Shown here: positions 256 to 61,319 of the stretch, in pieces
Numbering within the stretch: the stretch's first letter is position 1
Layout: every line of letters starts with the position of its first letter
NCBI RefSeq assembly: GCF_947623445.1
Contig: NC_135245.1
Span: 379,501-443,500 of the forward strand
From: Clavelina lepadiformis
Taxonomy: Eukaryota; Chordata; Ascidiacea; Aplousobranchia; Clavelinidae
Direction: 5' to 3'
Length of the DNA stretch: 64,000 bases
Notes under the pieces: generated by a model
Database searches by the model: none
Told to the model about the DNA's origin: nothing
What the model saw: the letters and a program-made list of their open reading frames with translations, nothing else
Made by a program: the position numbers and the translations under genes

Positions 256-1576
256 GGTAACCGAAGACGTAAACAAGTCACAGAACAAATTGGATCGCTT
301 TACTGAAATACCTACAATTACAAAATGCACTTGTGTCAAAACGCCTTATACAAAGCGAGTAATAAAAGCGCTGCCCGCAGATTAAGCACAATAACAATCC
401 TTCGACCATATTTAACCGAATGAGTGGTTCTAACATGAAAACGCGATTTAAATATTTTAAAAAATTTCTGTTGCAGTTTTCCTTAAACGAACATTCTTTG
501 CCTTTCCACTGTAAATCATAGGCCGACATTATCTCAGCTGCTGTTCACGTGATAACAGCGGCCGCATACTTTCCTGCTAACTGGTTACGCCACTGTTGCT
601 ACCTACTTGGTATTGGTTAAATGACGTCAAGCAAAGTCACACGATTGAGCGATCTCCTCGCTGAGTTTCTTTAACCAAAGCTGCCAGAAAGCGCGTCAGT
701 GCTTCTAAAAGCGTTTAAGAACAGTTTCGAAGCTCGGGCGACCTGTGGCTATAACTCTGCGAAGTAGTTTTCTACAGCACTGAAGTCACATTTCAATCAC
801 AGCAATATGATTTCCTTGTACTGCATCAACACTTTATTCACTTCAAATGACGTAATAATGTAGTTGAATGCAGCCGCTGGGGTCTGAGTGATGAATATAA
901 TCTCCCTCAGTTTCAAGTTCAACTGGAATGTGATAAAACTTCCATTCCCGCCGTTTTCAGACATTCTAGAATTCATTAGAACCTGGATTACCCATGCTGG
1001 TTTCCATTAAGTTCATTCGTTGATTTCGTCTCAAGATCTGTTGCCATACTCATAACCTTACAATACATAGCAGGCACATTCTAACCCTGGCGAACCTCTA
1101 CTTGATCGAGAGAAGCTTTTTCTCTCTGTTTGCGACGCCCGTTTCCCTTTTTTCATCGCTGTTGTGGCGTTATTCTAAAATATAAAGCTTGTTTTGAACA
1201 GGAAAGAATAAAATGACTGAGGGTGTGACGTCACACGACATGCCATAGGGACAGTGAAGCGTTCATGTGGAACAAATTTCCGTCTACGCGTGTTCTGAGC
1301 AAATATTTGGGTCCAACATGAAACCAACGTTAAGACGAATCTTAACCCTTGGAGCACAAATACAAAACGCGACGTTCATAACAGTAAACTCTTAACACGC
1401 GAGTTTTGTTCATTTTTTCGGCGACACTTTTAAAAGCTTAGATTGTTTATTGTGACGTAATGGTTTAGTAGCATGAAATCTGAACTAACACCACCAATAC
1501 TGAACACCTTGAGAAAAACTAAAAGCTGTCTCTAATTAAAAGGAAAAAATAGTAGGTGCAAAGCTATTTTTGATGG

Positions 1577-1770
1577 TTTCTTGTTAACTTAACTTAAAAT
1601 TTATAGCATAGTAGCATAGCTTAAACCCAACTAATCTAAATTTAACTTCAATGAAACCCTAAATAGCTTAAATCGACTTTTTTCGTACCCATTCTCCTAA
1701 CTTCAACGCCTATCTTTAACAACGGGCTGTGTGATCTACTTACGGCAAAATAGTCACTTCGAAAACTAAA
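1577..1770 (+). repeat. dispersed AT-rich repeat, copy 1
   Basis: This stretch aligns by eye, in the same orientation, with 61512-61705. Both contain TTCTTGTTAACTTAA near the left end, then CAACTTT or GACTTTTTT, CAATTCTCC or CATTCTCCTAAC, TATCTTTAACAACGG, and CTTACGG followed by AGTCAC. Neither copy shows an open frame. It may be the body of a SINE or a fragment of a larger element. Confidence 0.55.
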
Positions 1771-2576
1771 TCCTACAATTTACCAAATGTGTTATTTCCA
1801 GACGTGGTGGGAAATAGAATCAGTGCAGATTGGAAGGTTTGTTCACGGCAGGAAAGCTCCTAAGGCCTAAGCAAACAACCAAACTATCAACAAAGAATGA
1901 ATCAATAAAAAGAAATCTGACCGCCAACAAGGACACTTTGGTACCTGACAAGTGACAATCGGCTTCAAATCAACTTAAACTTCAAGTTTGTTGAGGCCCT
2001 GATCGGAGTTTTAAGAGAAAGAGCAGATGCTGAAAAACTCCAAATAGCAGCCATTTAACCAATGCAACTGAATCAGGTCAACTTAAGTAACAAAATCAAC
2101 CAAAAATGATGGGCCGGCTGGTAAATTAACCATATTTCCACGTCAACTATATTTTGGTACGCAAAATGGTTTCCAAGAAACTGCTTGCCCGACATTTACA
2201 ACTAAAATAATGAGCAGGACATCGACATTTCCATGCATTAATTCCCACCACTGCGAGAAATATCACACAACTATTATCACCGTTTGATAGCACTAACAGG
2301 GTGGATTAACTTTGCTTTCTGATCACGAACTTGACACAGTTGCCACCATATACCGAGTTCGTCTGTCTTGTTTACGCTGAACACATTGCTACCAAATCTA
2401 CAGCAGCCTAACTTCCGAGCTCACTTTTATCAAACCGTTGTCTATGTAAGTCTAATGAACAGACCTGCACATTGACATCACAATGGTAGCGCGATAGGTA
2501 ATAATAGCCTACTTCCAGCAACGCGTAACACGATAGGCCGCTTTTCTAAAGAACCTTATTTTAGGCCTCCTTGTGT

Positions 2577-3055
2577 TTAACCTTACTTACACTATGTTGT
2601 GGCGACCCTGCACACAGTCACAGCAAAACGTGGCGTACAGTTGTTTGTTTGTTGTAGAAATTTGGTGATTTTCGTAAAAAATGTTCAGCTATCTCTCCAT
2701 GTTTGTTTTATAAAGTTTGATTTTGTAATTTTTGAGATATTGTCATAGTTTCATAACTTTGCTCTCTCTCCGTATCCTTTACTCATTCATGCACAACTAA
2801 CTCGACTAACTGTTCTCTTCTCGCGGTCAGCTGGTTTTCAGCACAGCGGGGGCGCGGCGTAACAAGAAAAACTTCTAGAAATACTTAATTTACACTAATT
2901 TCACTTTCTTATAGTTTTACAATTATGATGTATACAGGAAGCCAGATGATTTTTCTACTAACCTGTAAAAATCCGATCAGTTTATGACGTATAGTTTTCT
3001 AGTAATTAACGATGGAAAATGTGTGTGCAGTGTCGGCCACTAAGATAAAATAGTG
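2577..3055 (-). repeat. TIR-bearing dispersed repeat (MITE-like), copy A
   Basis: It is an inverted copy of 26890-27411. Shared blocks include CACTATG..GTGGC, GACCCTGCACACAGTCACAG, CACAACTAACTCGACTAACT (minus one base in the other copy), CGGTCAGCTGGTTTTC, CGGGGGCGCGGCGTAACAAG and AATCCGATCAGT. The two ends are inverted versions of one another (GTGGC(C)GACCCTGCACACA at the left, TGTGTGCAGTGTCGGCCAC at the right), which suggests a non-autonomous DNA transposon. No coding capacity and no clear target duplication were found. Confidence 0.7.
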
Positions 3056-4215
3056 ATGTCGCGCACCCGGTTTGGAAATGGTTTGTGATAATAAGGGCAG
3101 ATTATACAAATCAGGGTTAAACCATTCACTGGGCGGGTCATTGCGCGCCCACGAATCTGAAATTGTTGGACGGAAGATATCAGACAACCTTCAAGGCAGA
3201 CATTGAACGTAGGACTTCATTGTCATGTTTGTGACGTAATAAAATCGAAGATTTTCGAAAATAAGATCCAAAAATAATTTTGTAACTCCAAACTTTCTGC
3301 GATCATTCCAGCAAAACTGACGTCACCGACTGATGAGATTTCGGTGAAAAACTGCAGAGTCATTGTCAGGTTTCGATCGGATCCGATAAAATTCAGTTCC
3401 AGTATGCTTAGCAGCGCCTTCTAGTGGGGGAAGTTCCACACAAAAATCACGTGATTGTTATTTACTACCGCGCTCTGAGGCAACTTTAATTGCACGAGTA
3501 TATCAACTACGTCATCAAAACCGAAAGGGATACACCTCTCAAAAACGTTACGTCACAAAGCAAGTCAATAGAAATAAAGTGCTTATATAAATGCGCAGAA
3601 TAATGTCTCTATATGACATACAAACCAATACTAAGCATGAACAATATAATACCTTTGCGGGGGTAACACTGCGGAATGAAATGTGGGTTAGACAATGCAT
3701 AGTGCCGCTCCTGCGCCATCTACCGGTGGCAACAACCAGCGCAGAAATTATAAGTTTAAAGAAATCAACCAGGACACGTTTGGCTGCAAAGTGATGAGAC
3801 AACACGACACAACCTTATTCCACTTTCACCGTATATAAGGATGCTTTATGTCAACCATGACCACACACATGCAGTGTTGGAAGGTCACCGATGTAACACA
3901 AAGTTCATTGACACTGACCTTGGGAGTAGTTATCAGGTTCAAGAAGCAGCGTTATGTTGGATGTGATACGGTCACCACGTGGGGCGGTATATAACACTAT
4001 TATGTCTACACAATATACAAATGCATCGTGAGAACAGTTGAAAAAACTACAAATCCGAACAATCAGCTCGTCCTGAAGGAATAAAGCGAACAAAAACCTT
4101 CCCTAAACACTTGATGAGGAATTTTACTTTTCAGAGCCACGAAAAGCAGTGACTAGCGCTCTGCTAATGCTCACAATATTGATAAAGAATGTAAAGGCAG
4201 AAGGGTTGGTGCAAA

Positions 4216-11685
<7,470 letters not shown>

Positions 11686-13342
11686 TACTTGGCAGATATG
11701 ATCAAGACAAATGTTGTCAATAATATGCACATGGACTGTTGCAGTGATGTAGTGGATGAGGCGGGCAGGGGCCGGCTGAGGACATTCAAGTTAATTTCGG
11801 TGAATTTTAACAAAATTACAGCCTACCATGAAAGATGAGTATGTTGAAACAATCTTGAGAATGAAAAAGATATTTAATTTAATCATCGCTGCATAAATTA
11901 AAATGCACAATTTTGTAAAATCTGAGATGTTCATAAAACACTGTAATAGGCTACGCAGTAATTTATACAACAATGAAAATAGGCAACAAGCATTTTTCCA
12001 ATATTATTATCATACTACAAATTGGTAATCGAGTTGCTCAAAAATTTAGATTTTCATTGAAGTCAAACAAATCCCCCTGCAAAAATAGCCGACACAATAT
12101 ACCACAACAATGGTGCAGGAAATGCAACCAATAGCAAGCGTCACTCCATATTACTGTTCAATATGTTTCTCCAGCACTGGAAGAGTGCTCACAGCCTACA
12201 GTGAGTCTAACACATCTCTCAGTCAGTGCAGATGGTTGCTGGACAGCTGCAAGTGCAAAGTGATTAACGGACACAGATCCCATTCAAAGCAGCGTGGGTT
12301 GTAATCCTTAATACTTTGCATCAAAATAGCAGCATCACTACTTAAGATTAGTTATCTACCGAACAACAATGAATGCAGTTCACACCCACAATATATTTGC
12401 GATGGCTTTTACAGCCAGATTTGGACTTGTGCTTATAGCAATGATGTTGTACCAGCAAAGCATACAGATAAGATCTATACAAGAAATGTAAAATTTTCCA
12501 GTTGATCAAACGTAAATCTGCCATTAAACAAACAACTCAACACCAAAATTTTATTATTTAGATTCATTCTCCCCAATAGTAAAGAAATCTAAACTATTTA
12601 AGATCAAAGATGTTAACAAGCAGGTACAAGATGGCCAGGCAATGAGTTAAAAATGCCAAGCCGGCTACTCCTTGCACCAACAACAAAAGATATACTGGTA
12701 TGACATATAGTTTAGATGGTGCGGCACAATGTCAGGATCGTTATTTCAGGATGCCCAATTCTTCAAACACATGAGAAAACCAAAAGTCATCATTGGTCCT
12801 GGATCGCATAATTGCAAGTCAAATTTTGTGCAATTGCACTACGACGGTTGCACAATTGATAAAATATTTGGTGTCACATCTGCTTGTGGGCTTAGGTACA
12901 GATTTTATTCTACTTGCAAATGTGTTAGAGACTGCTCTACACAAGCGACACTTGGGTTGATTGAACATTTGTCGCCTGTAAAATAAATAAATGGCCACTT
13001 TTAAAAGCTCGGCTTTTTCAGTGAGTACCAGCCAGGGCATTTTAGCCACATTTCCTCTGATGATCACATGACCACCACTAGCGCATTGGTAAAATTGTGT
13101 ATTCGGCTTTTTGCTGTTTCAAAGCAAACTAGCAAAGTGTTTCAGCAACACAATAAGTTTAACCTAATAGTCTGGTAATTGTCATCAGTCTAATACATTC
13201 TAGGTTCCCTTTAAACTTTAATTGCTGCAAAATTTAAAAATGTTTTTACAAATTGCAAAACGCTTCACGGCCTACTTTCACAATTATATAGAATTAACCA
13301 AGCTAAATGGTTTAATAGTTTCAGTTCAGCTCACAATTAACA

Positions 13343-13372
13343 GCTTCGCTTAGGCTACAGGCTAAGCGAAGC
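13343..13372. repeat. perfect 11-bp hairpin
   Basis: GCTTCGCTTAG at 13343-13353 and CTAAGCGAAGC at 13362-13372 are perfect reverse complements separated by 8 bases. There is no T-run after the stem and no gene nearby, so this is a palindrome rather than a terminator. It may be part of a decayed mobile element. Confidence 0.8.
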
Positions 13373-13417
13373 CTAACACTAAAAAATATCGACAGTGCTG
13401 AACAATATTATGTGGGC

Positions 13418-13501
13418 CTAGTATACAAGTGCACAACCAGATGACGTCACAATTTTGGTGGCTGAGGTCTAGTATACAAAGATATTCTGTGGTTGTGCAC
13501 T
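13418..13501. repeat. nested direct and inverted repeats around a TGACGTCA palindrome
   Basis: AGTGCACAACCA (13428-13439) is the exact reverse complement of TGGTTGTGCACT (13490-13501). CTAGTATACAA occurs directly repeated at 13418 and 13469. A TGACGTCA palindrome sits between the arms at 13442. This arrangement suggests the ends of a very small inverted-repeat element, but no target duplication was recognised. Confidence 0.7.
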
Positions 13502-15942
13502 ATCCACGGTGCCTGTGCTAACATTCTACCGTTTATAGCATCAATGTAGACATCTGGTTTGTTCCAAGCCTTTGGTTGCCTTGGGCGGTATTTTCCTAGC
13601 AGTCCTGTTTACCAAGATGCCATCATAGCAAGCTTTTGTTGTCGTTTAGGTTATACTTTCTGTAACATAATCCATCCATGCCGTAAGGTCATATTACCTG
13701 CCAGCAGTCAGTAGGCAACCTTGAACCTGCCTGTCATGCTGAAAAAACAGAACTGACTGTACGACTCAACGCACTAAACTCTGCAGCAGCAATGGTCGTC
13801 GCTCGCTCTTGTTTACATTATTCTGACAAAATGAGTAAGTTCCGTTGCTTTGCTCTTTAGCGCTACCACCACTCACAGTGAAATTACGTTAATGTTGGTG
13901 CCAGCCTCTCTGGTACGAAATATTCGTCGTCACTGCTGCAAATAGTACATTTGGAATCTCTCCGTGCAAGGTGCTGGATAGGCATGTTCGTTTAAATTGT
14001 TGTAATAATAATTTTTCCCAGTTAGCCACCACCGATATATAGTGTAATAGATTGCGGAATTGGTTGCGAAGTTTCAATCTCGCTCCCATGCTTAGGCAGC
14101 TCATATCTTCTTCACAAGAACTTACATGACATGAGCTTAATCATATCAACAAAATCGACTTTACCGAATAACACCGGCTGCTGGGATTCTTGTAAGCACC
14201 GCAATGCAATCGGGCTGACTTGGTTCGTTCACGATTGAATATGGATTTCTAAAATCATGAACCCGGACGAGTCTGTTTTTTTAATTAATTCACCGCCAGC
14301 TTGTGAAGGAAGATTTATATTTTGGTCACCATGAGATGAGACAATTGCAAAAGAATTTAAGAAAGTTAACGAAAACTTTTAAGACAATAAAGTTTCCATC
14401 GATTCAAGATCGACTGATCCTGAACTTTTTGAAAAACAAGAAGAAATGTTTAATTTTTGAAGCCTATCAAAGAAAGCGCTTTAGAATACGATGCTTACTA
14501 GTCTACCAGTAAAGTAACTTGCGTTTAATTTAAAAAGTGTTCAATCGCGAGCATAACATGAATCTTAGTATGCTTGGAGATTTTTAAAAAGAGTTTTCTT
14601 CTTGTGCTTAGATATGGAAAAATAAGGTTTGTAAGATTAATTCTTTATACACTATACGGTAATAGCAGTAGCTCGAGCTAATTGACGTGCCCGCTTGAAA
14701 AACGAATTTCGGCCAGAGTCTGACATTTGTCGGCCAACTTAATACTTTGGCGGCACGAAGAGTTTAATATAAGTTATGCATTTATAGAATATTCAATAAA
14801 AACGCGTCAACTTGCAGTGAGCGAGTGAGAAATCATCAACAACAACAAGCCACAGCGTTACGCTTCTCCTTGCTTAAATTCAAGTTTGATGAAGTCATGT
14901 GTCCAGTTTGTTAATTTGTTAAGCCTGAAGCAAAGTGCGGTTGTTATTGAGAAGCGAACCTTTATGCTATGTTAAGGAAAATTAAAAACACGTTCTGCCA
15001 CCACTTTAACATTTATTGTTGGTGGTTTATAAACGTGCAAGAAACTGCCATCGGAATTTTCATATGTTATTCGGGACGACCAATCACGTTTCGCTGCTTG
15101 ATGATGTCGACAAAATTTTTTGTTTCTTTATTCTCTTTTCCTTCTCTCACTAATTCTTCTCCTCGAGATAATTTACGCCGATTTAGAAACAAATTTTTTT
15201 TTATCAGATTAATTGTTTGTATTCGTCATCTAGAAAGAAATGCTTTATTTCACTTCACGCGTGATGCATAATGACGTCATAATAGAACACGTGATTTGTA
15301 AACTTGCCGCCCAAGGCAAGCAGTGGTTCTTCAAATCTACGATAAATATTGAAAGGATTTTGAAGTTGAAGTTATAAAGTGGGTGGAGATTTTACAGGGT
15401 TGCTTCTTCCTAAAGCTTATCCACCACCAGACAAAAGTCTTAGCTTTGACTTCAGAGTTTTCGGAGAGAGCGAAAGACATCGCAATTGAGATGACCTTGC
15501 AGGAAGAATTACGGCGCAGTACTTATAAAAGAATAAAGCTGTTATTGCCAGGTCAAACTAAGAAAGACATTAGCTCAGACCAAAGGCTCTCTTGATAATG
15601 TCTCGACTTTAATGAAGTCATTTTATACAAGCTAATACTTTTCAGTCAAAACAATCACCGCCGGAAATTTCCCTGTTGTAACGAGCACGCAGGCCGGAAA
15701 TAACGTCAGTGCTACATGACGTTTGTCTGTTGTGACTAGGATCCAACCATGAAAACAAAGTGATTGTAATAGCGGAGCCAGGCTATTAAGCTATGCGTTT
15801 GCGAAGAGGAATTCATTCCATGCGCAATTTATAGAAATTTTGTGTTTCGCGACAATTTCATTAACTTTTCTCTTCAGATACAAACTTTTTAACTTTATTC
15901 AAAACTGTTCACTGGAATTCATCCAAAATAATTTGCATCACC

Positions 15943-17794: not shown

Positions 17795-18027
17795 ATTAAT
17801 TAAATTATCTACTACAGTGGTTACCAAGGAAACACAACACGGACAGTATCTACGACTCTACGTCATCACTTTAAGTTTTTTGAATTAGCACGATGCTAAG
17901 TTGAACTGGACAATTATGACCAATATAATCTAGGTCATTGTTATGTCAAAGTTGTAATCTTAGATCACTCGCGTGTTGCTTCCAATCCAGTGGCTGCTTA
18001 AACTTTAACCCGGCACCCTTACTGTAT

Positions 18028-18033
18028 AATAAA
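18028..18033 (+). terminator. polyadenylation signal of the MS4A-like gene
   Basis: AATAAA lies 234 bases after the stop codon on the coding strand. It is the nearest canonical signal. Cleavage site not determinable. Confidence 0.5.
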
Positions 18034-18054
18034 TGGTGCCTATGTTTTGTTATG

Positions 18055-18200
18055 TGCTTATGTTAATTATAAAATCGCAACTTGAAAGACAATGGAAACA
18101 GCGTCTTCCACCACCTTAAAAACTAAAATCGCCCCCAACTTCAAAAATTGTCACAATTGCCCCCTGGGGGGCGATATCGCTCCCGTTGAATAACCCTGAT
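18055..18200 (+). repeat. dispersed repeat family 2, copy 1
   Basis: It is an inverted copy of 52485-52645. Shared strings include AATTATAAAATC, GAAAGACAATGGAAACAGCG, CCCCCAACTTCAAAAATTGT, TTGCCCCC, CGATAT or CAATAT and CCCGTTGAA. It is non-coding. This copy lies in the 3' flank of the MS4A-like gene; the other lies in a KIF28 intron. Confidence 0.75.
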
Positions 18201-37422: not shown

Positions 37423-37789
37423 AGTATTTTTAAAGTTTATGACGTAAAACTGTTTTGGAAATAAAAGTGTCGTTTATATTTTGCCATTGACTCTGGGAAG
37501 CGGAAATTACGATGCTAACCACTATAGCGCAATAAAGAGCATGCTGACGTACAATTAGTGAACAAGGGCTTTGTTAAAACATGCAAGATAATACAATTGT
37601 GCTACATGTTGGTAGCATGGCCAGCAAACCCACAATACGGTGTAAGTGTATTAGCCTTGACCTCCCTTCGAGTGCTCCCAGGGTCGGACACCTTTCATTC
37701 ATGACATTCACCGCTGGGTGACAGTAGGAAGCCTTTGTACACAGAAACAAAATATTCTTCGAAACTTTTCTTTTTTTAATAAATTTTTT

Positions 37790-41967: not shown

Positions 41968-42360
41968 GGTTTCTGCGACTAATTTCGTATTTTGCTTTAT
42001 CTTTGAAATGCCGCCAAGCTGCTGCCGAGAAAAAGCTCTGTTGTGGGTTGCCTTGTAAATTTCCTTCGTTCATTTGATGGATAACTTTGTTGGTTTCATT
42101 GTTTCTTGAATGGATGGATTCAGGTTTTTCATTCAATGATATCATCATAATCTTATCGTCATGATTTTGTCTTTGTCGATTTAATTTTGCTGACTGGGCA
42201 GTTATAGCGACTCGCTCCTTTCGTTCAATCGCTACAAAGAGAGACGACGCGGGATGTTCATCCATTCAACCGTAACATCAGCAAATATTTAACTTACAAA
42301 GACGCCGACGTCGCGCTTGCATTGTTTCGTCATAATTACTGTAGAGTAGCTTGAAGTAGG
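41968..42360. promoter_or_regulatory. candidate bidirectional promoter
   Basis: The start codons of the CAP-Gly gene (-) and the NHL gene (+) are only 393 bases apart and face away from each other. The gap contains GACGCCGACGTCGCG near 42301. An open frame of 103 codons runs through it on the minus strand, but it ends in a stop beside the CAP-Gly start and does not join that gene's frame. No TATA box was assigned. Confidence 0.5.
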
Positions 42361-43661: not shown

Positions 43662-45905
43662 CCAAACAATAAGAATATTATGTTGTCACAAAGCCATCGC
43701 GTGTATAATGCAAATAATTAATTTTCAGGACAAATTTATTCAAATATAAAGGCTAATCATCGTCACCTGGCGAAAACAATTTAAAATTTCATGATAATTT
43801 TGGCTGGATGAGAGTAATCAGCGCACACATTAAATGAACTTTGAACTAGATTAAAATTCGCCTCAGAATAATCTTAGCTGCGTATAATCTGACAATTTAT
43901 TAAAATGTTATGAAAACTTTTGCCAACTTCAACCCAAACCACCAAAAACATTTCAAAATATCGCGACTATCGCATGTGTAGTGGTGCAGGGCGTTTGTGA
44001 CATAACAATGTGGAAACGACAATTCAAAAATTACTGTGCTGATCTTCTTCACATGATCAGACATGGAGCAACATGATCGACTTCCCTTGTCATTTAGGAG
44101 TATACGTCATAATATATCCGCTTTATGACTTCACAATGCACCACATTATAGATTTGTTACAACACAGATTAATTGAGATTGACCTATCTTATCCACTGTA
44201 GAAAAACTTGGAAAGGTCAGAGGGTAACCTGATTGTCACGTCATCCTGACGATCTATCATGAAATTTTTATGCAATCGCGAATATATTAAACGATTGGAT
44301 TCAAAATCAGTTCCAAGACAAAAAATGCAGCGAAACAAGAAGAAGAATTCAAAAACTAATCTTGCTCCAGCTTTAGTCGTTAATTCATTTTCTCTGACCA
44401 TTGTTATCCAATAACGACAAATTATGACGTGGCCGAGAATTGAATGTAAATTCGGTCGAAGAAAATTTCCATCCAAGTTATTTTGCAAAAAGATTGAGCA
44501 AAATATTCCCGGTGAGCTTTCATTGGTTTAAAATTTCACTCATGACGGAGCATGAATGACGTCGACGTTCGTCTAAATTTTTTTAAATGGACGTCATTAG
44601 CGGTGCTGACGTCACAGCCAAGCTAATAAATCTAAAATGTTTATAAATGCTGATAAGGATAACCGCAATCCTATGGGCAGGCCATGCTGTCAGATGCTGC
44701 TGTAATGTTGGCTACGACTTAGCTTCAGGTCATGTTAACACTAGTTATAAGATGCAGGTTGTAGTTCTACGGATAGAACGATTAGAAAGGTTGAAGGAAG
44801 GGAAAATGGAACTTTTCATTCATCTGTTCCACGGATGACGTTTGCTCGGTGAATGAAGCGATAAATTTATCGTCTCCCTGAACAATTGCTAACGTGACGA
44901 AGTCGAATTAAAACAGCGATGGAAAGTGGATTGATTTTTTATTCAGAACGTCGGGAGCTGCTAAGTCGACAAATTAGTTAAAAGCGTCGATTGTAATGAA
45001 GCGGACAGACACGAAGGATAAGAATCGTGAAAAGTTCTTTTCAACTGAGCGGCAAATATAGAAGATCGCCGCGCAAAAGATTGTGACGTAGATTGTGGTG
45101 AATTATGAAGCGATGACCGGAAAGCTATTGCATTGTCAGGCGTGTGTTAGAACGGAAATTGTCTTATAAGTGTAAACACAGTGAGACACAAATAAGTGGA
45201 AATGTTCCTAGAAGGAGCGTTGATTTGTTTTTACAGAATAAACAGCGGTTGATTGCTCGCAATGTCTCGCTTAGACGTTTACATGTCAGGTCGTGACTAG
45301 AATTTCTGGAGATGAAACTTTGAGATTTGATTAATTTCTTTTTTGCAATCTAGCGAGTCTGGCAAGTAAGTCTCGGGAAACGACTCATTAATCTTTGTGA
45401 CGTAACAATCAGCCATTTCGATGCAAAAATCTCCGTGGCAGAAGTAACATTTCATTGTGTGCTTTGGAGTTTGTCAGAAAAGAAAAGGATAAAAGGTTGT
45501 TGAGAGAAGTTATTATGATGTCACAAACAAATATTAAAAAATTAATAAAAAAAATATTTGTTTGGTCAATATTTCGTATTTTTAATTAGAAAGCAAGAAA
45601 GGTTTTTGCTGAATTAATGCGGCGTAAATGATACAACTTTGCCAATCAAGGTTATTACGTCATTGAAATTATCAACTTGATGCTTACACAGGCAAGCTCA
45701 GTATCAGTAAAAGTTTGAGTTTTTATCTAAAATGGAAGTTTTTTAGCCTTTCTTAAACCCTTTTTGGTTTAGAAAAAGATCTTACCCCAGTCTTCCCGTA
45801 AAGTGCAACAACTTCTGCGCTAAACACATTTATTTATCGGACAGCTTTTACTATTTTTAAGGTGGTTGTTGTTAAATTACTCCGGACCATAAATTTTGAT
45901 GCAAA
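43662..45905. other. intergenic spacer
   Basis: About 2.2 kb with no supported exon. It holds one exact TGACGTCA at 44607 and several near-variants such as TGACGTAA. The promoter of the GPCR gene is expected at its right end. Nothing else was recognised. Confidence 0.55.
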
Positions 45906-48900
45906 ATGTCATTGATAGCCACCTCAAATGGGCCACTCACTGAAGTTGGTGAGTTGGGTTGTAATTTATTATGAAAAAACAAAATTTTTAAAATTTGGTA
46001 AAAATATTCGAAACGCCCTCAGCAGTTATAGACGAAAACTTGGTACTTTTCTCAAAATTAAAAACGAAATGATATGGTGGAAAATTTTTAAATAAATTTG
46101 AACAATTTCCAGAGAAAGAGATTTGTAAGATCCAACAGGAACCTCAGATCGCGTTTGGTGTTGTCATGATCGCGCTTATCATCATCGGATTGGTCGGCAA
46201 CATCCTCGTAATCCTCACCATTCTGCTCCTCCAAGAGTTTAAGAAATCCGTCACCAACTGGTGAGGTCATCAACGCTGATGACGTACAATTGACTTGTAA
46301 AGAAGTAGCCAAGGAAGTTATAAGCACCTTGATGCTCCAACAAAGTTTTGCTCGTGACAGATATGACGCTATTTTGGTTGATTAATGTCAATTTGTGATG
46401 TTTGTTTTATGCAGGTACATTTTGCAACTGGCCCTGGCTGACACATTATTCCTTGCCATGCTCTCCCTCACAGCTCAGAGTTCAATCATTGGGAGGTGGA
46501 TCCACCCGGAGTGGGTTTGCAAGTTCAAGGAGGGAGTCATCTTCATCAACTATTACGCAAGCATCTACTTTCTCGTGGTGAGGAAATGACCATGATTTGG
46601 ATTTTCGATGAAAACTTTGTAGATTTTTAGTTGTGTTGTGGCCTTGAAATTTAAATCATATATAGATTAGTATACACCGGTGTTTGCTGGTACATATTAC
46701 TTCAGTTTGCTAAAACCTGGAGTATGTTCTAGGCCTATTCTTTAAATTACAAATGTGCTTGATGAATTCTTTAAATGTGAGGATAGTAGAACGTGACGGG
46801 TCCAAAGCACAAAGATTGTGACGCAATTTCGTGATTGGTAGGAAGTCCAAAAATACTTTGCTGAGCATTGATTGATGACTTGGAACAATTTCATAATTAT
46901 AATTGGCTCGCATCAGAGAATTTTTAATCATTTTATGTTACTTCTGGCCAAAATTTGCTTTGTTTTGAAGGTTTGTGCTGGCCACTAAAGTTATAGTAAA
47001 TAAAGAAGATGGTATTTTGGCAAAGTGTAAGTTTTTATCTTTTCCACTGGCCCCTTAATTTTAAGTAAAATTGCTCATTATCCTAATTCAGTGCTAAGTC
47101 AATTTGGTAATTGCTGGTTTGCTGCTCATCGCTTTATGTTAGTATCGCTCGACGTGCTTTGTTTCAAAGCATTGTTTGCTAACAAGCACGATAAAGCGGA
47201 ACGCTTCTTTGATAATATGAGGGAGCAGAGCGGAGTGGATTATGACCAAATAAGTTCATTGATTTCGTCAAATATGTCGTCATATATACGTCACCGTTCA
47301 ACGTTGCATCACTTAAAAAATGTTTTGTCGTCGTTTTATGAAACTCCCTCCCACTCAAAAAATCCAAGCTGCACGATTTGGACGTCGTAGAAATAAATTG
47401 TTGGGTCATAATTAACATTTCTTATCTTTGCAGGTGATGAGCCTTGACCGCTACCTGGCTGTGACGAAAGCATTTGCGTCAAGCACATGGGTGACGTCAC
47501 TACGTAGCCCTATTGCGTCTTACATCATCAGCATAGTAGGGTGGTCGGCGAGTATTCTGGCCTGCATCATTCTCTACCAGAACGCCAAGGTCAACGATTG
47601 CCAGATCTGTGGCTTCGACTTCGGCCACGTCAGTAACATTCCAACATCACAACACGTCACCGCCTCACAGACGACGAACGAAAACTTCACCGAGATAAAC
47701 GTCAACATGACGTCACCAGAGGGGGATGAAAATACAATAGATTTCTCAGAAAACTTGGATGAATTTGAAGCAGGATTCTTCGACTACGAGCTGCCTTACG
47801 AAGTACTTCGGCAGATTTATGAAGATTACCTGAATGAAGCGATGAAGAGAAGCCAGTCAACAGGTGCCCACCTCGCCTCCATTCATAGTGTTGCTCGCTT
47901 CGATTGGTTAAGTGATGAGTTGGTTGTTTTATAGCGTCGCCTGACGTCAAGCCAACAGCTCCAACGCTCTCTGGTGAAGAAGAGGAGACAACGTCCACGG
48001 AGGGGTTGAAATATGTCCTCACTTTCCACCGATTCTGCAAGTAAGTCTCGAGATTTTGTTTGTACGACACCACGTCCAACCATATGCTTCATGGTAAACA
48101 TATCTTGCCAGACACACCAACCAACCAACCTTGTTCGTCTGGTTGTGGACCAACTTCATCATCGCCTTCCTCATCCCATTATTCCTCATCTCGTTCTTCT
48201 ACGGCATGATCATCTCCACCATCATGAAAGCCAAATCCGTCGGAAATAGCGAGTCACAGGTGAACTGGTTGTTTCGTATCTTGCCGTGTTATTTATTCTT
48301 CACCATTGACTGTGGGGAGGGGGGGAATGGTACTAACATTGTTACGTCATAGTAATACAATAACATACTGACAACCAACCAATCCATGAAGGTAAAAAGG
48401 AGGCAAAGTCATGTGGTCTTAAAACGTGCAAGATGTTTATCTACTTATATATTTTATTTTAACAACCCCATACTTATGACTCTTTCCAGCGGACCTATCG
48501 TCGCAAAGTCACCATGATCGTATTGGGGCTGGTCATATTATTCGTGGTCTCCTGGTCGCCATGGTATATCGTCAAAATTGCTCAGATCTACGGGATTGAC
48601 CTTGGCCTTGAAGCTTGCAGGAAACTGGGGGACGCGGTTCGCGCCATTGCTTACCTCAACAGCGCCCTCAATCCATACTTTTACAGGTGAGTGACGGTAA
48701 TGATGACGTCATGAAGTCATGTTAAGCTTACGGTACGTGACAGTTGGGACTAAGATTTCAGCGATTTTGTGTGATTTATTCGGTAAGTTTAATGGAGGCT
48801 GGTGATTGGTTGGCGCCCTGTCACGTTTCAACCTTTCACATCCGGAATCGTAACAGCGGAAATACGCAAATAATTCTCTTCTTACTCTGGGTATTATTAC

Positions 48901-49371
48901 GTCATAAATCACAATGTCTTAGATGTATTATTACCAGATATGTTTGACTAGCGCTGGCAACTTTCCTTGGACAATCGTGACAACTTCATGCGATTGTGAT
49001 GACCCGCCAGCATGAGTCGACAAATTAAAATATTTTAGCATCTCGCTTATTTAATCAGCCGACCACTTTTGACCTTTCATTGCGTAGCAACTTTTGTGAC
49101 GTCATAATTACATCGCAGCTTCCTGGGCAGCCACTTCCGGGATAGGTTGATGAGAGCAGGAAAGAAGGTCCGGATTCCATCCACGAAAGGGAGCCGCCTC
49201 AGCTCCGGAGGATCTGGTCGTCGCAGGAGGAAGTGGAGCACCAGCAACAGCGGGAGCAACAAGCAGGTCCGGATGCAGTGCGTCAAGCAGGGGGAAGCAC
49301 CTAAGGAGGAAGAGCTGATGGTGCAGAGCACTGCGCAGAAGACGGAGCGGACCATCCTCCCCATCGTATAG
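45906..49371 (+). CDS. rhodopsin-class G-protein-coupled receptor, peptide-receptor type
   Basis: Eight exons (45906-45948, 46113-46260, 46415-46577, 47434-47863, 47935-48040, 48112-48259, 48490-48686, 49119-49371) encode 495 residues. TM1 has GLVGNILVILTILLL, TM2 LQLALADTLF, TM3 ends SLDRYLAV, TM4 PIASYIISIVGWSASILAC, TM5 FIIAFLIPLFLISFFYGMII, TM6 VTMIVLGLVILFVVSWSPWY and TM7 NSALNPYFY. The TM2, TM3 and TM6 wording is closest to the somatostatin/opioid/galanin group; the ligand is unknown. TM6 has S-W-S-P in place of C-W-x-P. The loop between TM4 and TM5 is exceptionally long (about 150 residues), acidic, with possible N-glycosylation sites NFT and NMT. The C-tail is basic and Ser-rich, offering kinase/arrestin sites. 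The short first exon, MSLIATSNGPLTEV, fits in phase but is less certain. Confidence 0.9.
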
Positions 49372-49507
49372 ACGCTGGTGGGGGAGGGACTCGAGAATAA
49401 TGGGATCGCGGCTCGGAACGATTTTGTTTGAAATCCTTGATGTTTGACTTAACTTTCTGCACAAATATCCTGCAAATGAACCACCTTGCTCTACTTGCTT
49501 GTAACAT

Positions 49508-49513
49508 AATAAA
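49508..49513 (+). terminator. polyadenylation signal of the GPCR gene
   Basis: AATAAA lies 137 bases after the stop codon; further AATAAA words occur near 49607. This is the expected 3' end. Confidence 0.5.
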
Positions 49514-50208
49514 AATGTTACCGCGCAACCTGTTGTGGTTAGATGAGCGATCATTGTTTACATTTTTGTGACATCATAATATACGAATTCACAGTTTAAC
49601 AAGAAAAAATAAATATTGGAATATTTCAAGACAAAAATATTTCACACAACTTTATAGACTAAGACTTAAAAACTTGCAACTAATAACAGCGCCAATTGTT
49701 TCATAGAAGCAATATAATTCCATTTTTGCTCTGGCGACGTTCTTCTAATATGAGTCTTTAACTTTCCGTCTGTTTTGTTGCGTCATAATCGAGAACCTTA
49801 GTTTGGCAAAAATGTCGCATACTCGCAGTTTCGGACAGGTATTGATGACGCAATAGACGGTTGAAAACTAATGAGAGCAAAATTATATGAACAATGCGCA
49901 TAAGGAAGCAAAATGAAGTATTTTTACATATCAAGGATTCTTCTTCGGCGTAAAAACTTTTCTAATGCTGTATTTCCAAGTTCATGATCGTTCCAAGATA
50001 GTTGCGAAGTAAAACTTCATAACATCGTCAGTTTGTGACGAAATAAATAAAAGGGATTTATAGTGGCCCTCCCACTTCCGCAATTTCATCACCTGGCCAA
50101 GGCTGGACACGAGCGCATGTCGAGTCTACTTTTAAGGTTTTTGAAGCACATTGTCGTTACATTCATGGTTTATGACGCAATAAAGCGATGAGAACTTTCT
50201 CGAACAAC
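49514..50208. other. spacer between convergent GPCR and KIF28 ends
   Basis: About 0.7 kb of AT-rich sequence separating two genes that converge. It must contain the KIF28 polyadenylation site on the minus strand. No exon or named repeat was recognised. Confidence 0.5.
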
Positions 50209-53200
50209 TCATTTGATGGGGGGAGGCCTTTCCATCTGCTGGAGTCGAACTGCGTTCGAAACCGATTGTTTAAGACTTAATAAAGTCGCGTCGAGATCTT
50301 CAGATAATTTCTCAATTTCTTTGTTGCCCTTAAATCCATTGTGTGACGTCATACGTGCTAGATTTTGTTGCAGAGGGCGGATGTCGCTGAAGAAACATTT
50401 CAAAGCTCGACCTAGCTCCGCTTGCGCTCTGTTGCTACCTGACGGTTTTGTTTTGGTGTTATTGATATGTCTGACGTGGCTTGTCCCAGATCTTGTGGCG
50501 CCTTTCTCTGAAAGAATTAAAGATATTATTGCTGAGAATTATCACCAATACGAAGAGTGCAAGGGAGATAACTTTTCAAATTTCCTTACCGTGTTCTGTG
50601 GCAATCCTTGCTTCGAATTTCTTCCGAAGCTTTGAGTTTTCTTTCTTTAAAACCTGAAAAAAAGATTCGATGACAAACTGATCATGTGCTGCATGCAACG
50701 TTGAGATCCTACGTTGCAAATCCTCCTCAGATCTTGGTTATCTTCATCCCTCTCTTTCAACATCTTCTTCGCTTCCCTGAGCTCGCTCTCCTGAAAGAAA
50801 AGTCGCAGCAATTGAAGTTGAAGCTTCGACGATTCGAGTCTAAGCGACATCGTGTGACTTCATTACCAGCATTTCCACGTCACTGCTGCTTGATGACATA
50901 GATGGTGACGGAGTCGGTGACGTGTGCGTGACGTGAAAAAATCCTGAATCTTGCCTCGAGTTCCTTTTTCCGGTCCTGCCCTCTGCGCAAAGCAAATTAA
51001 AGTACTTTGATGTCGTCGAAGATAAAAAAGTTGTTAATTTTAAGACACTTCGCTTCGCTTAAGTCCATGCTCAGGAACTTTCGGTCAGATTTTTAGAATT
51101 TTTGGTTTGCTTAATTCTGCTTTGTTTATCGGACACCTTGCAAACCCCAACTATTACCTTGCAGACCCAAAACTATCACCTTGCAGACCCCAAAGTTCGA
51201 CGATGAGGGCCGATGAGTTGAGGTAGTGAAGGAGGTCCTGGTCCACACGTTCCACTGTGATCAGCTGCTCCATGTTGAAGCTCGGGTTGATCGTGCGCCA
51301 CACAGCGGCGGTCTCATGTCCGTATTCTTCGTCGTAGAACTTAAACCTTAAAAGAGCAAGCATGAAAGCAGAGACCTGGAGGCGATAACGTGAGAAGTCA
51401 TCTTTGAGCTTCTCACCTCAACATTGCTCCCCTGCTTTTCTTTTCTCTGATCCATTCTACGCCTAGACAATGCGGAATGTTGATGATAAAATCCATCCGC
51501 TTACCGACCATCTCCGTCGGATCAATCACCAGAGAGTCCTCTCCTTTCATCCTGGAGGAAGAGGAGAACGGATGTTGGACTCATATTTCTAGGGAGACTA
51601 CCGAGAAAAAGTCCATGAAAATAACTTACTCTTTCGTGGGAGTGCAGGGATTCATAGACACCTGCAGGATAGCGACCTCTTCTCCAATATCGTTATTTAT
51701 CGGTACTTGGTCATCTAACGGCATGTTGTAAGACAAACTGTGCAACCACACGTGGGCGCTACAATAAGAAAGAAGCAGTAAATATGATCTAAACGTTTCA
51801 CTCTACGGAACTTTGAAACCTAGAAACTATTCGCTCATCCAGCAACAAAATCTTCAGCGATGACGTAAACAACACACCATCCGAGATAAATGTCCTCCAC
51901 CGGATCCCAGAACGGATCGAGATCTTCCGATAACTCCACCATCCATGTGGGATCATCCTGATGCTTCATGTAAAGCTCCTCGATCATGTAGCGGCGGTTG
52001 ATGAATTTGCTTTTGGACCAGATCCAAACCTGGTCTGTCACCTGGTGGAATAAAATAAGCTACTTTAAACACTTTAGCATCTGAAGAAAGATTTTTGGGG
52101 TCGTCTTTAACACCCACCACAGTATCATTGTCGCTACCTATCGGTCACACCTAGCCAATCTTTTTCCCACCTGGTGTCGTACTTCCACCGCTATTTCTTT
52201 TGGGATTTCGTTTCCCCGCGCGTCATAAGTGGCTAGGTTTTTAACAAAGAGTTCAAAGTCTCTTTCCTTCTTAAGTTCTTGGCTGATGGCGTTCATACTG
52301 GCCACAACCGGCACCAACCGGATGTACTCGGCGTAAACTGCATCTGTGATGCTCTGAAGATGTCGGAATAAAAAGGAATTCAAAGTTTAAAAACAAAGAA
52401 CTTCAATAATGACACTTACCATAGTGTTTAAGCAAACCACAAGTATTCGCTGAAATTAATTCACATCAGCCATAAGCTCTCGTTCAAGGTTCTTCAACGG
52501 GGGCGATATTGTCCATCAAGGGGGCAACTGAGACAATTTTTGAAGTTGGGGGGAGGGGGATTTTAGATTTTAAGGGTGTGAAAGACGCTGTTTCCATTGT
52601 CTTTCTAGTTGTGATTTTATAATTATGTATCTGTTATTTACCGCGCTATTATTGCATAAGGTCATACTTGCTTTGTTTCTGATTGTTCTTTCCTTTTTGT
52701 GATAATTTCAAAGCATATTGAATATCGCAAGAAGAAAAATAATCGTAGGGGCAATTTTGACGAAGAACTCCGAAAAGGGGTGATTTTACAAGAAAAGGTG
52801 GATGACCACTGAGTTTAGCTTCTCTTGTGTAAACGTCAAAACTTCTTCAAAATCAAACTTGGAAACTGTCTTCCAACACCAACCTCGTTTTTATGACGTT
52901 TTGCTCTTGGTGACGTATTAGGTAACTCATGAGTGATGTCACTGTAGGTGAGGAGTTCGTTCTGGAAAAAGTCGAAGTTGCATCGCTCTGTGACGCTCTC
53001 GACGCTCTCGCGAGATCTTTCCGATGGGAATCCGATGAAGAGGAAGAGCGAGTTTGAACCGACCTTGAGTCGATCCTTTCAGTTAAGAACAAAGATGTGT
53101 ACGTCAAAATGAGCAAACTCATTCAAGGTCAAGAATCTCAAACTCAAGTTCAAGTTCACCCCGTGGTTGAGTGAAGTCTGGATGAGGATTTTCCTCCCGT

Positions 53201-56200
53201 TGATGGTGACGTCATCGTTGGCGCAGGGTTCCATTATCACCTTGCCCTCTCCATTGCTCCGGATGATGAAATGCTCCTCCTGGATTCTGTGAACAAACAA
53301 AGAAGTTCTTTGTTGATTAGAAACTGAAGACGATATGAAGTAAATTGAACTTCGATCTCACAAAATCTTTTTGCAGATTCCACTGCAAAGGTGAGGAAGT
53401 TTATTTCTCACATCATTAACATCACAAAGATCATTACAAATGTCACAAAAAAATTTGAAAAGGAATCTTTTTCAAAAGCACAAACTCTCCATTACCCGAG
53501 TCCCCTCAGCACAATATAATGGATTTCTTCTTTTCTCTGCTTGCTGCATCTTCCCACATTGGTGACCCCGTCGTATATCGGGTGCTTGATGATGCCACTT
53601 AGCTGTGGGTCTTCATTCACATTCTTAAGCGAAGTTAAGTCATTCGACTTTTTGTTGGAAACCTTAACTTACTTAAATAAAACAAGATTCATGAAGAGAT
53701 TCCAACCTGTAAGTACGGGTAGCATTGGTTTCTCTGTTGGGGCATCCCCTCAATCGATCTTTGTTCTGCCTCCCATTCCTTCCGGGCAGTTTCCAGCTTC
53801 TGTTCCCATGATGTCATCATCTCCTTCATCTGTCGTTCGTTTTGCGTGAGCAGTCGCTGAACATCGGCTAAAATCATCACAACATGGTTGTGACGTAAGC
53901 ATTCTTATATAATAACAAGGAACCGCTAATGACCTACAATTATCACTGACGCCATCATGGGGAGATTTTCGCGATAATTGAGCAAGAAGTCGCGCGTTTT
54001 CCGCCTTCAGTTGTCGAATCAACTTGTCGGTCGGACTCTCGTTGACAACCGCCCTGTTCTTTATCTTTTTCGCTCTGTTCGCGTACCTCAGGGTAGAGAG
54101 GGTCTCCTCGTAATTGATGTCGGCCGGACTAAGCGCCGCGATCTGAGAAAAAATTCAATATTTAACAATTCAACAAATTCGAGATTTATCTTCCTGATGT
54201 GAAGTAGAATGGAGCCACCATGACAGTTTTGCTGTTCCCGCCCAGGGCAGATTTGAGAAGTTTAGTGAGAACGGAGTCCCGGTAAGGCACAACCGATTTG
54301 GGGTCAGCAGTTGCTAAAGTCTCAATCACAGTTCCCAGCATCAAAAGACTTCGGTTGATCGCAGAACCTTCTTTTAGTCTGTCACCTGCCGCGGAAAGTT
54401 TATTTCATTATAAAGTCTTTTTCGATTTCTATGTTCATGCGTCTCGATAGCTTGTAATGATGTTGAAGTAATAAACTACAACGTCATAAAGTACGCTAAT
54501 ATGGGGTAATAAAAATCTTACCGGTTGCCCCTGACGACTCTGCTCTCTCACTTCCGGCGAGATCGACCAGATTTATCTCACTCGTCTTCGTGGTGCTCTC
54601 ACCAAGGTCATTGTTGAAAATCTATGGCATACGTGCATTATTCGGTAACAGAGAGCACGATTGTTTCGGCGCTTGCAGGCCATGACGCGTCGAACACTGA
54701 GCTACGCTCTGACGACATGATTTGGTTTAAATTGGCAAACCTGTTTGAACTTAATGCTGATGACCATGTGCGATCTGCTGCTCGTAGCGTTCATATTTGT
54801 CGCAGCAGTTGTCCGGTTGATGGCGCCAACTTCCATCAATTGTTCTACTGAGTTGTAATCTCGGCATGGATGTTGCGTCAAGCCTTCGACGTAAAAACCT
54901 ACGTCACGATTTTCACGAACCTGCAAAAAGAAATGGTTTGACCGAAAGCAACATCACGTGGGACTTAAGCACGGAAGGAGTCAATCAAAGATTAATCAGA
55001 GATAAACCAAAGTAAACAACGGGGAGTTTCTTACCTTCAAGTTTGTTGACTTATGTTGACTTTTATTGAAAAGCAGGTCGCGAGTTTGCTCGTTGTAAAT
55101 CTCAAGCATCGAAAAAGTGACCTTTAAACAACACGGCGCGTTGGTTCGGCAGGCAAGGCAAGGTAATGCAGGAATGTGGAAATGTAAATTACATCATCGG
55201 TTTGAGATTTTTTTATTACTTTGTCGCCAGATGTGGTGTTGCCATAACAACCTGTAGCTCATTGTTAAGCGATAAAATTTATGGTTTCTGACATCACAAT
55301 TAACCTTTACGATCTAACGATCATTGGAGCTTGAAATTTAGGGAAATTTTGAGCCAAACGACGATTTGTTCAAACAATTTGTAAATATCCGCTCAGCCTT
55401 GGCGACCACAACATAAATCAAAATACAACTAATCTGGAGCCTCTATCTTAGCGCAGAAAAGAAAGAGGTGTCTAGTTTCTTGCTGGAAATACGCCCTGAG
55501 CTTACGATGAACTTGGTAGGAAACTTATCGCCTTTGTTGACACCATCTTACCTGTAGCTCTTTATCGCCCTCTCTGGCCTCATCGATAGCTCTGAAGAGG
55601 TTCCCGCAGGTGATTGGGACAATCCCCTTATTGCTCCCGTGTCCCACCATGGAGTAACTTTTGCCGCTCCCCGTCTGTCCATAAGCGAATAGGGTCGCGT
55701 TGTAGCCCGCCCACGCGTTCTGGAGGACCCCCCTCCCCAGATCATCGAAGACGGTCATCTGTAAAGATGGGGAATGTTGATTGTTCAATAAAAATTATTT
55801 CATAATAAAAAGTTGACAATGGTTTATTGTGGCGTCATAATTAGAAAAAAGAAAGTGCCCTTTCTCTCCATATCGCCCTCTCGTGGATCATGAGACAGGA
55901 CCCTTGACATTGGAATGGCGGAAATAAAAATCTTCTTCAAACATGAAATTTACAACCAACCCCTAGCAAGCACGATCGTCAATTTCGTGGAATCGATAAA
56001 GACGGAAGATGTCATTAACTTTATTACGTCACAATATGTTTGTTTATGTTCTAATAAAATCTTTCGCTCCTCACCTGATCCGCATAACGACTGCTCGCTT
56101 CTGATTGGATTAATCGTCCATTCTGATCCACAACGTAGCCATCGTGCGACCAATAGGAATAGTCGAAGCTGAATTGCTTTGTCTCTTTGTTTGTTGGGTT

Positions 56201-58790: not shown

Positions 58791-61319
58791 TATGATGTCA
58801 CAACTGAGGTTCTTCTCCTTATTTTGCTGGTTTTAACAGACCTGCAGTTGCAGGAAGGTGATTGCACATTGACCATGAACCAACTATACTTTAAACGCAA
58901 CGCTCTAAACACTAACTGAGGTTGTCTGGCAGCCCTCTTCCAAGCGAGTGAATTCCGCCTTCTTCGTAACCTCACATCCACTTCCACACCGTTGGCATAA
59001 AGGTTGTAGACCGCCACCTAACGGCTAATGAACTATTGCAACCTTTACCACTTTATATTTACGAGCAATTTGCCATAGAGACGCATTTCTTCATCAGTAA
59101 CGGAATATTAGAATGAAAACAAAATGGTCCTAAAAGTTTCATAAAAACTAATTTCTTGTGTCCTTTCTATTATTAACTCAGCAAGTTGTTGATTTCAGTG
59201 ACAGCTGACGCTGGCTGATGTGCACGCGACCGTTACATTTGATGGTTACTGAGCTAAAATTTTTTGGGAGACTTCCCACAATCTGAACCTTTCTGCTTAG
59301 AGTGATGAGCCAGACATAAAACCAGGCGCTCTAATCAACATCACATTCCTCATCTGGTTGTTAACAATCAATATTGTATAATTTTTCAAAAATATGATAA
59401 AACTGATAACAAGGAATGAAAAGAAACAAATAGCGACTGTACCGTTTTCGATACCAAACAAAGACAAGATTTTTAAAATTTCACGAGCACAGAACTTGCT
59501 AAAACATTTTATTTTTATTTTGAACAGAGTATAATATTTTTCTCAGAAGTAGATGCAGGTCAAAAATTTAAAAGACATGCATTTATTAAGCCTGTTGGCT
59601 TATTTGATAATTTAACTATTTAAAACAAAAAATCTATTTTACTTGGGAATACTCTTATATTCAAAATTGCATAAATCATAATTTAGAGCCTTTGAAATTT
59701 AATTTACCATAAAAAACATGTAATCCAACTGTTGGAAAACAATTTGAACCTATAGTGAGAGACAAGTACAGAAACAAGTTGATCTTACACGAAAAAAAAA
59801 ACTATTAACTGAACATTCGGGTAAAACATTTTTAAAAATAAATAATTCGTGGTTAGGTAGTTATCGGAAAAATAAAATCGCAAAAGATCTCAGTTTTTGG
59901 CCTTCATTCTGACATAGATCAAGGCTTTTGTTATGTCATAGAGTAGTCAAATTGCTTGACAACATGCTGCTGCTGTTGCTTTCTTTGCGCGGTAGCCGGT
60001 AGTCAACTGAAGTCAGAAGTGTAGGTCATAGGAGTTTAGCCTATATCCAGTTAGGCGTCATGTCATGAATAAACTGCGATTGCTTTAACTATAAAATATA
60101 CGTCAGCTCAATCATTAGCGTCCCGTAAAATTACGGTATCCTTTGTACCGCTAAGGCTAACCGTCAAACCAGTACCGTACTGGTTGCCGTGTTTGGGCAA
60201 TAGGCTGTCACCTATCAAGCTATTGGCAGTTAGAGCAATCTATTCAGTTGTAACAGATACATACGTGATGTATATAAGGACAAAGGTGGTAGGCCTATTG
60301 CTAAATTTATGAATTTGCGAATGTTGTCTGTGATTACCTTGTAATGAAATGATTGTTTATCGTTCCTTAGCCTGTAAGGACGACCACTTCAATTACAATG
60401 TTTGTCTGTAGAATTGCTTAATGTCCTCGAAATGAAATGAGTCTCAGGTCGTTGTTTCGCTTCTCTTAATCTTAGAATTAATTGTACACCTCGACAACTG
60501 TATAAACTGGTTATATTGAAGTTTCATTGAACGAATAAATCAAGATAGAACATTGTGACAGCTACAGCACAAAGACATGTTGCGGCGTTGAACGTAGAAA
60601 CCAAAAGGACTGAATAAATCAAAATGCACGCACAGGGGAAGCAGTCGATTACGTCACGCAGTGTTATGCTTCACTGATTCCATAGATGAGAATTCTATGT
60701 AGTACACAATTTTATATTATATTAAGTGATATATTTATCACAACCTGTAACATCACAAGAGCCTTGATCTACGCCACAATTAAGGCCAATTTTGCAATTT
60801 TATTTTGTTTATAATTACCTAACCAAGAACTATTTTTCAAAAATATTTTACCGGAATATGTAGTGAATGGTTTTCTTTCATACAAGATCAATTTGTTTTT
60901 GGACTTACCCCTCTCACTTTAAGCAAAATATTATTAACGTGTACCAAGTAAGGTTTGCACGTAGTACCACAGCAAGCTGACTTCGTAGTTTGTTAATAGT
61001 AAGTTGAATGTAAGTGTTTTGTGTGTGCCAGCGTCTATTTACCGGCTGCCAATTACCAAATTTGGATAAAGCTACCTCGGTAAACGGCGGCGGGTGATGC
61101 AGACTCATATTGTGACGTCATCTGGAAGTGCACTTGTATAGTAGACCCGGAAAATACGAATATGATCAACAGCAATAAGGCTAGCTTGTGAATTGAAATG
61201 CATGCTAACTTAAAACATATTAATTTTTCCAAATTAACCTAAAACTAATCCCCTCTGACCTAAACTCTCACCTTTTATGACTAAATTAAGTCAAAACTAA
61301 ATCTGAACAAAAAGAAACA

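Follow-up and report, generated by a model that had tools for sequence, protein, structure and literature searches.

Several described systems are relevant to the sequence reported here. Cyanobacterial genomes carry HIP1, an 8-bp palindrome present far above expectation at ~500-2500 copies per Mb (PMC4390886), coding sequence included, and accompanied by cognate methyltransferases. Transcription factors of the bZIP class bind the cAMP response element (CRE), and human bZIP tables list both CRE and CRE-CAAT (TGACGCAA) as dimer sites (PMC5349851). Finally, motifs of single factors can be clustered, as those of human NRF1, PRDM9 and CTCF are in homotypic clusters that grew by germline insertions (PMC8559717), or can mark recombination hotspots, as M26 does in fission yeast. 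Here we describe a 64-kb stretch of the ascidian Clavelina lepadiformis (NC_135245.1, positions 379,501-443,500 of the forward strand, contig C6; hereafter the window) that is rich in the CRE-like palindrome TGACGTCA.

Judged by likeness, the nearest analogue that we found is cyanobacterial HIP1. TGACGTCA is likewise an 8-bp palindrome in strong excess that does not spare coding sequence; however, its genome mean is 92.5 copies per Mb, it reaches a HIP1-level density only locally (500 per Mb in the window), and it is clumped and degenerate, with bZIP-like variants. The likeness to the CRE extends to the exact palindrome, the purine and pyrimidine flanks, the 8-bp rather than 7-bp spacing, and tolerated variants such as TGACGCAA (PMC5349851), whereas the densities just given, the broad domains and the presence in exons set TGACGTCA apart from it. 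M26 shares the core word ATGACGT, which is bound there by a CREB/ATF pair, but a perfect CRE is reported to be inactive in yeast ade6 (PMC9775316). As in the human clusters, the motif of one factor is clustered, possibly with a germline origin; unlike them, our domains span tens of kb, and no insertion was seen in the one block that was aligned. A literature search over titles and abstract openings, covering tunicate CREs and related motif excesses as well and with subscription journals mostly outside it, returned no account of such an excess of TGACGTCA.

Excess of TGACGTCA in the window and in the genome

The window contained 32 exact copies of TGACGTCA. An initial annotation of this DNA had listed 31 of them, all correctly, and had overlooked one at 19446; its claim of a strong excess over chance also held. 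Three hundred shuffles of the window that preserved dinucleotides gave a mean of 1.07 copies and a maximum of 6, and the Markov expectation was 1.09 at order 1 and 1.44 at order 2. Among the 256 palindromic 8-mers of the window, TGACGTCA had by far the highest z score (25, with the runner-up at 8.6), and five CpG palindromes matched to it in base composition occurred 0 or 1 time each. The window was also denser than the genome mean, which predicts 5.9 copies (Poisson P 6e-14). Rfam and tRNA scans of the window gave no matches.

The genome search covered 209.06 Mb in 95 contigs of this one species, for which a slightly larger assembly, of 210.1 Mb in 102 scaffolds with nine chromosomes, is published (PMC10884593). 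Genome expectations were derived from the trinucleotide frequencies of a 235-kb sample of 27 loci placed by hand. We found 19,339 copies of TGACGTCA versus 2,222 expected (observed/expected, O/E, 8.7), whereas its reversed control occurred 4,891 times versus 4,074 (O/E 1.2). This count against a Markov background had been named beforehand as the check, a value near expectation being the sign of a local accident; at 8.7 versus 1.2, the excess is not a local accident. The variant TTACGTCA, counted on both strands, occurred 21,400 times (O/E 3.6; its control, 1.0). Longer versions of the word, of 14 to 16 bases, reached O/E values of 112 to 535, in part from duplications: the 14-mer TTGTGACGTCACAA occurred at 132 places versus 2, a count inflated by segmental duplications, and the 15-mer and 16-mer counts, which duplications may also inflate, were 215 versus 1 and 99 versus 1. 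In the 27-locus sample, same-composition CpG palindromes occurred 1-3 times each, versus 26 copies of TGACGTCA. Because 13 of these 26 lay in two loci, the distribution is clumped; without those two loci, TGACGTCA was still in excess (13 versus 2.17). Two other palindromes in excess were TAGGCCTA, with 16 copies in the sample (2.1 expected) and 4 in the window (0.2 expected), and AGCGCGCT, perhaps satellite DNA, with 14 in the sample (0.75 expected).

We also analyzed where on the chromosomes the word lies. In the complete list of 99 places of the 16-mer ATTGTGACGTCATAAT, 65 were no more than 5 Mb away from a chromosome end, compared with an expectation of 43.0, and the nine loci no more than 1 Mb from an end averaged 278 copies of TGACGTCA per Mb versus 56 for the other 18. 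Across the 27 loci, the dependence of palindrome density on distance to the end was not significant (rho -0.21, P 0.30), and density had no relation to GC (rho 0.07, P 0.75). The outward bias stands without a matched control word, because the one intended, AAGTCGACTAAA, had 29 places, several of them from one tandem array on contig C5, and was not used. Since the central deserts include satellite-like DNA (L012 and L021), the outward bias may reflect repeat content. These two loci (contig C1 at 17 Mb and C3 at 12 Mb) and a third, L015 (C1 at 25 Mb), are stretches of nothing but repeats, with 27-28% GC in two of the three, and are probably satellite arrays without the motif. Thus the genome-wide sequence preference proposed by the initial annotation stood insofar as the excess is genome-wide; it did not stand as a uniform preference, the excess being domain-like and biased to the outer parts of chromosomes. 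The roles in chromatin, replication or punctuation that the annotation raised are hypothetical.

Identity of the word

We next compared the variants and flanks of TGACGTCA. A purine preceded and a pyrimidine followed the core in 78-79% of site ends, and positions further out carried little information. Near-variants were common in the window, as had been noted at the start: TTACGTCA (counted with TGACGTAA) occurred 23 times (2.1 expected), TGACGCAA 10 times (2.7) and TCACGTCA 10 times (2.2). Single changes were not random, with TTACGTCA, TCACGTCA, TGATGTCA and TGACGCAA enriched and the transition TAACGTCA rare. The enriched variants TTACGTCA, TGACGCAA and TGACGTAG retain the half-site TGACG, and TTACGTCA is a mixed bZIP site. 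In contrast, the 7-bp AP-1 word TGASTCA was not in excess in the window (8 versus 11.2 expected), nor did TTACGTAA or TTGCGCAA show a clear excess there. Because the variants keep TGACG and the AP-1 words are unenriched, the sites seem to be constrained by their affinity for a CREB/ATF-type dimer, and the words point to such an affinity rather than to the copying of a fixed sequence. These results agree with the first identification of the word as a CREB/ATF site. Taken together, they indicate that the genome carries a domain-like, genome-wide excess of predicted high-affinity CREB/ATF-type (bZIP) sites.

A longer composite motif or a large separate element was rejected, as TTATGACGTCATAATTA occurred at only 15 places, two of them in the window. 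Expansion of the bZIP family was likewise rejected as an explanation: a search of the genome with the bZIP_1 profile, the bZIP_2 family not being included, gave 18 matches, a number not unusual for an animal genome. Two of them, the best and the third-best of the genome, lie ~1 kb apart at C7:18819520-18820743 on the minus strand, a candidate binder; the pair resembles the alternative DNA-binding exons of CREM. Another word, CAAGGTCA, which resembles a nuclear-receptor half-site, was moderately enriched, with 10 copies in the window (2.4 expected) and 18 in the other loci (6.6).

The dense domain and its exons

Contrary to the first description, the sites were not spread window-wide. The dense domain (32001..56000) held 21 of the 32 copies (875 per Mb), at 35954, 36254, 36902, 36959, 37190, 37223, 39141, 39341, 40202, 41378, 41427, 41646, 42591, 44607, 47492, 47708, 47942, 48704, 49097, 50344 and 53207, together with many near-sites, which form a broad domain from ~32 to 56 kb without clear gaps. 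No regular or nucleosome-like spacing was clear by eye among the 170 near-sites. Ten scattered sites lie within 622..19453 (622, 1226, 3318, 4510, 4627, 13442, 15272, 17564, 19073 and 19446), of which 13442 sits in a dispersed repeat, and a last, isolated exact copy is at 61113..61120. Neither the interval from 4627 to 13442 nor that from 19446 to 35954 has a copy starting inside it. The first of these blank stretches (4635..13441) lies over a protein-kinase gene (Pkinase exons, identity by eye), and the second (19454..35953) over a gene that looks RBBP6-like by eye and whose exons include RING and zinc-knuckle ones (the zinc-knuckle match was above the cut-off, the RING matches below).

The dense domain and the blank stretches also differed in CpG content. 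The CpG o/e was 1.06 in the dense domain, where 150 CpGs lie within TGACG/CGTCA, and 0.92 when the motif CpGs were removed; it was 0.72 in the first blank (4001-13000) and 0.78 in the second (20001-32000). The corresponding TpG/CpA o/e values were 1.11, 1.32 and 1.15. These values make a good case for past methylation in the first blank and a weaker one in the second. Across the 27 loci, half-site density tracked CpG o/e (rho 0.58, P 0.0016).

Sites were found within exons. In the dense domain, 4.1 kb of selected coding sequence (a 440-aa open frame and exons of a G-protein-coupled receptor, GPCR, and a kinesin) contained eight of the 21 sites, that is 1.94 per kb versus 0.65 elsewhere (P 0.018), where "elsewhere" includes unrecognised exons. 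The initial reading that the sites are something other than individual enhancers fits both this observation and the breadth of the domain. The 440-aa frame (35982..37304, plus strand) had no family match in Pfam and is thus treated as a predicted gene only. All five of its sites read (x)T GAC GTC A and encode Asp-Val. The frame contains eight Asp-Val pairs, five of them encoded by GACGTC, versus a mean of 1.29 in 5000 shuffles of the protein, none of which reached 8. Among the nine frames in which the Asp-Val excess was tested, this one alone was extreme; two others had P 0.02-0.03, one of them in a blank stretch.

The rhodopsin-type GPCR exons (46386..48687, plus strand) matched Pfam 7tm_1 on four exons, two of them below the curated cut-off, and contain in-frame sites at both 47492 and 47708, where the motif encodes Val-Thr-Ser and Met-Thr-Ser. 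In a weak alignment (E 0.05) of 47416-47931 (plus strand) with somatostatin receptor 2, a four-residue gap lies opposite VTSL; the second inner loop of the GPCR thus has four apparent extra residues, Val-Thr-Ser-Leu, encoded by the motif. The FHA-like kinesin exon (53082..53357, minus strand), similar to KIF1A (E 3.6e-4), carries site 53207 as Asp-Val; it matched no Pfam family itself, and the motor exons of the kinesin (53753-55794) gave Pfam motor matches. In this exon and in a semaphorin exon of locus L034, the residues coded by the motif could be aligned with solved relatives, and no gap fell at the site.

Explanations for the excess

Repeats contributed little to the sites of the window. 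The interval 32001-52000 had no repeat in common with the window itself or with 31 loci by BLAST, 39001-47000 had no other match in the whole genome, and one 142-bp repeat (52484-52625) was found in the dense domain. Only one of the 32 sites lay in a repeat shared with the sample. In the set formed by the window and the chosen loci, 5 sites fell in 55 kb of repeats versus 66 in 264 kb outside. Flanking sequences of the copies were almost unshared, and the copies lacked the homologous flanks of a transposon or repeat family. One repeat is present in the window as an inverted pair, at 2577-3040 and 26913-27411, with ~85% identity across 0.5 kb. Elsewhere in the genome duplications were evident. 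Three of the four loci retrieved for TTGTGACGTCACAA (L001, L002 and L003; C1 at 3.17, 3.42 and 3.81 Mb) were >99% identical over 2-3 kb, a recent segmental duplication that inflates long-word counts, and at C1 ~0.32-0.47 Mb motif positions recurred every 62,675 bases, at least three times over, showing a large tandem duplication. Close pairs of sites (gap 0-22 bp) occurred at 250 places versus 4 for the control; a dispersed 21-mer with two sites, TGACGTCACGATGTGACGTCA, accounted for 13 of the 50 close pairs listed and lies at many places on C1 and C2, with several copies clustered at C2 12.3 Mb.

An 895-bp block in L034 allowed us to follow individual sites. The genome contains it at eight places, including a partial copy, and the seven copies aligned were 84 to 100% identical, with two identical pairs. 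All 11 blocks with a near-site in at least one copy were free of gaps across the seven copies, so insertion is unlikely to be the main route in this element. Sites here changed by substitution; in one block, TGACGTCA stood opposite GGATTTTA, with four substitutions in eight bases. The insertion bias suggested by the initial annotation was therefore not borne out in the one alignable duplicated block.

The explanation that we tentatively favor is that a weak and diffuse pressure promotes CREB/ATF sites throughout open, unmethylated domains. A CREB/ATF-type dimer would bind the dense domains in the germ line, these domains would be unmethylated, and a weak pressure at each site would favor alleles of higher affinity. 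Its likeliest form would be weak selection for dense binding, which would hold whole domains open and unmethylated. By our computation, a scaled bias of only ~3.7 per site is enough for a ~40-fold local enrichment, and such a bias could be sustained at thousands of sites in a very large population. The excess in exons, together with the eight Asp-Val pairs where 1.29 are expected, was counted toward a pressure on the DNA itself. The genome-wide O/E values, the variant spectrum, the flanking purines and pyrimidines, the correlation of half-site density with CpG o/e and the gap-free L034 blocks were also taken to speak for the favored explanation. The pressure could be one of selection, biased conversion or mutation.

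Under ordinary regulation, the sites would belong to separate CREB/ATF enhancers and promoters, unusually numerous in this species, with no pressure beyond local gene control. The word and its variants are those of CREB/ATF sites, and a CRE survey reports a bias to transcription starts in vertebrates only and not in Ciona (PMC1796609); a scattered arrangement of CREs may thus be common in tunicates. The sites, however, occupy a broad domain, in which neither gaps nor spacing are clear, rather than points, their density in coding sequence is at least that in the rest of the domain, and the predicted 440-aa protein is distorted, so that we consider this account improbable. A similarly low probability goes to meiotic recombination, in which CREB/ATF-bound sites would steer breaks or repair in the outer chromosome and biased conversion, or selection on crossover placement, would multiply the word. 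It must be taken seriously as a rival, since meiotic recombination in fission yeast is directed by a CRE-like word, the hotspot M26 being ATGACGT bound by the bZIP pair Atf1-Pcr1; yet a natural TGACGTCA in ade6 is reported to be neither bound by this pair nor a hotspot (PMC9775316). In the window, ATGACGT occurs 40 times on the plus strand, and the outward placement of ATTGTGACGTCATAAT also fits recombination, whereas the lack of a significant relation of density to end distance or GC in the 27 loci, and the satellite DNA in the central deserts, do not favor it. Moreover, the initiating allele is usually the one converted away, and initiation alone should erode the word. A search for PRDM9 by its SSXRD domain gave no match, the controls being equally silent.

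A germline mutation bias, in which bound sites break and are repaired by short insertions that copy the motif, has a precedent at human spermatogonial sites (PMC8559717). The excess of close pairs and, weakly, the extra GPCR residues speak for it; but the gap-free L034 blocks, the kinesin and semaphorin exons without a gap at the site, the share of listed close pairs that are one repeated 21-mer, and flanks that are not copied make it quite unlikely. Still less probable is spread of the word by repeats or segmental duplication. The near-identical TTGTGACGTCACAA loci, the recurring two-site 21-mer and the duplications on C1 show that such copying occurs, but the small number of sites in repeats, the differing flanks and a dense domain mostly free of repeats by repeat finders, BLAST and genome search led us to reject it as the main cause in the window. 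Preservation of CpG alone, by which unmethylated domains would keep all CpG words and TGACGTCA merely among them, draws on the higher CpG o/e of the dense domain and has the lowest probability of all: same-composition CpG palindromes were unenriched, CpG o/e remained high without the motif CpGs, and the deaminated words TGATGTCA and TGACATCA showed no concentration outside the dense domain, with 7 copies in the 32 kb before it, 5 in its 24 kb and 3 in the 8 kb after it. CpG preservation was thus excluded as the sole cause, and it may be a condition for the excess.

Several observations weigh against a weak pressure for CREB/ATF sites as we have framed it. The looser words TGACGTAG and TGACGTAT were also enriched, a pattern more in keeping with a half-site than with one defined dimer, suggesting that the TGACG half-site matters most. 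In the L034 block, motif columns were variable in 15 of 88 cases versus 167 of 789 for the others (P 0.41); they were not significantly more conserved and so gave no sign of purifying selection there. The coding rate leans on one predicted gene, since without the 440-aa frame 3 sites remain in 2.8 kb, and the frame in the blank stretch has four Asp-Val pairs versus 1.12 expected, none encoded by GACGTC. Palindrome density, finally, tracked CpG o/e only weakly across the 27 loci (rho 0.35, P 0.08).

A more far-reaching form of the favored explanation, in which a diffuse DNA-level drive in the germ line, through selection proportional to affinity or through biased conversion, multiplies sites across open domains, exons included, and so reshapes the encoded proteins, would make TGACGTCA a eukaryotic counterpart of bacterial punctuation words; we regard this form as possible but rather unlikely. 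Should such a pressure exist and act on the DNA word itself, one transcription-factor motif would shape both noncoding DNA and protein over much of an animal genome. The excess would then offer a case, countable and open to test, of binding sites under weak selection or drive throughout a genome. In tunicates, which are the sister group of vertebrates, the word might then serve as a sequence marker for domains that recombine or are open in the germ line.

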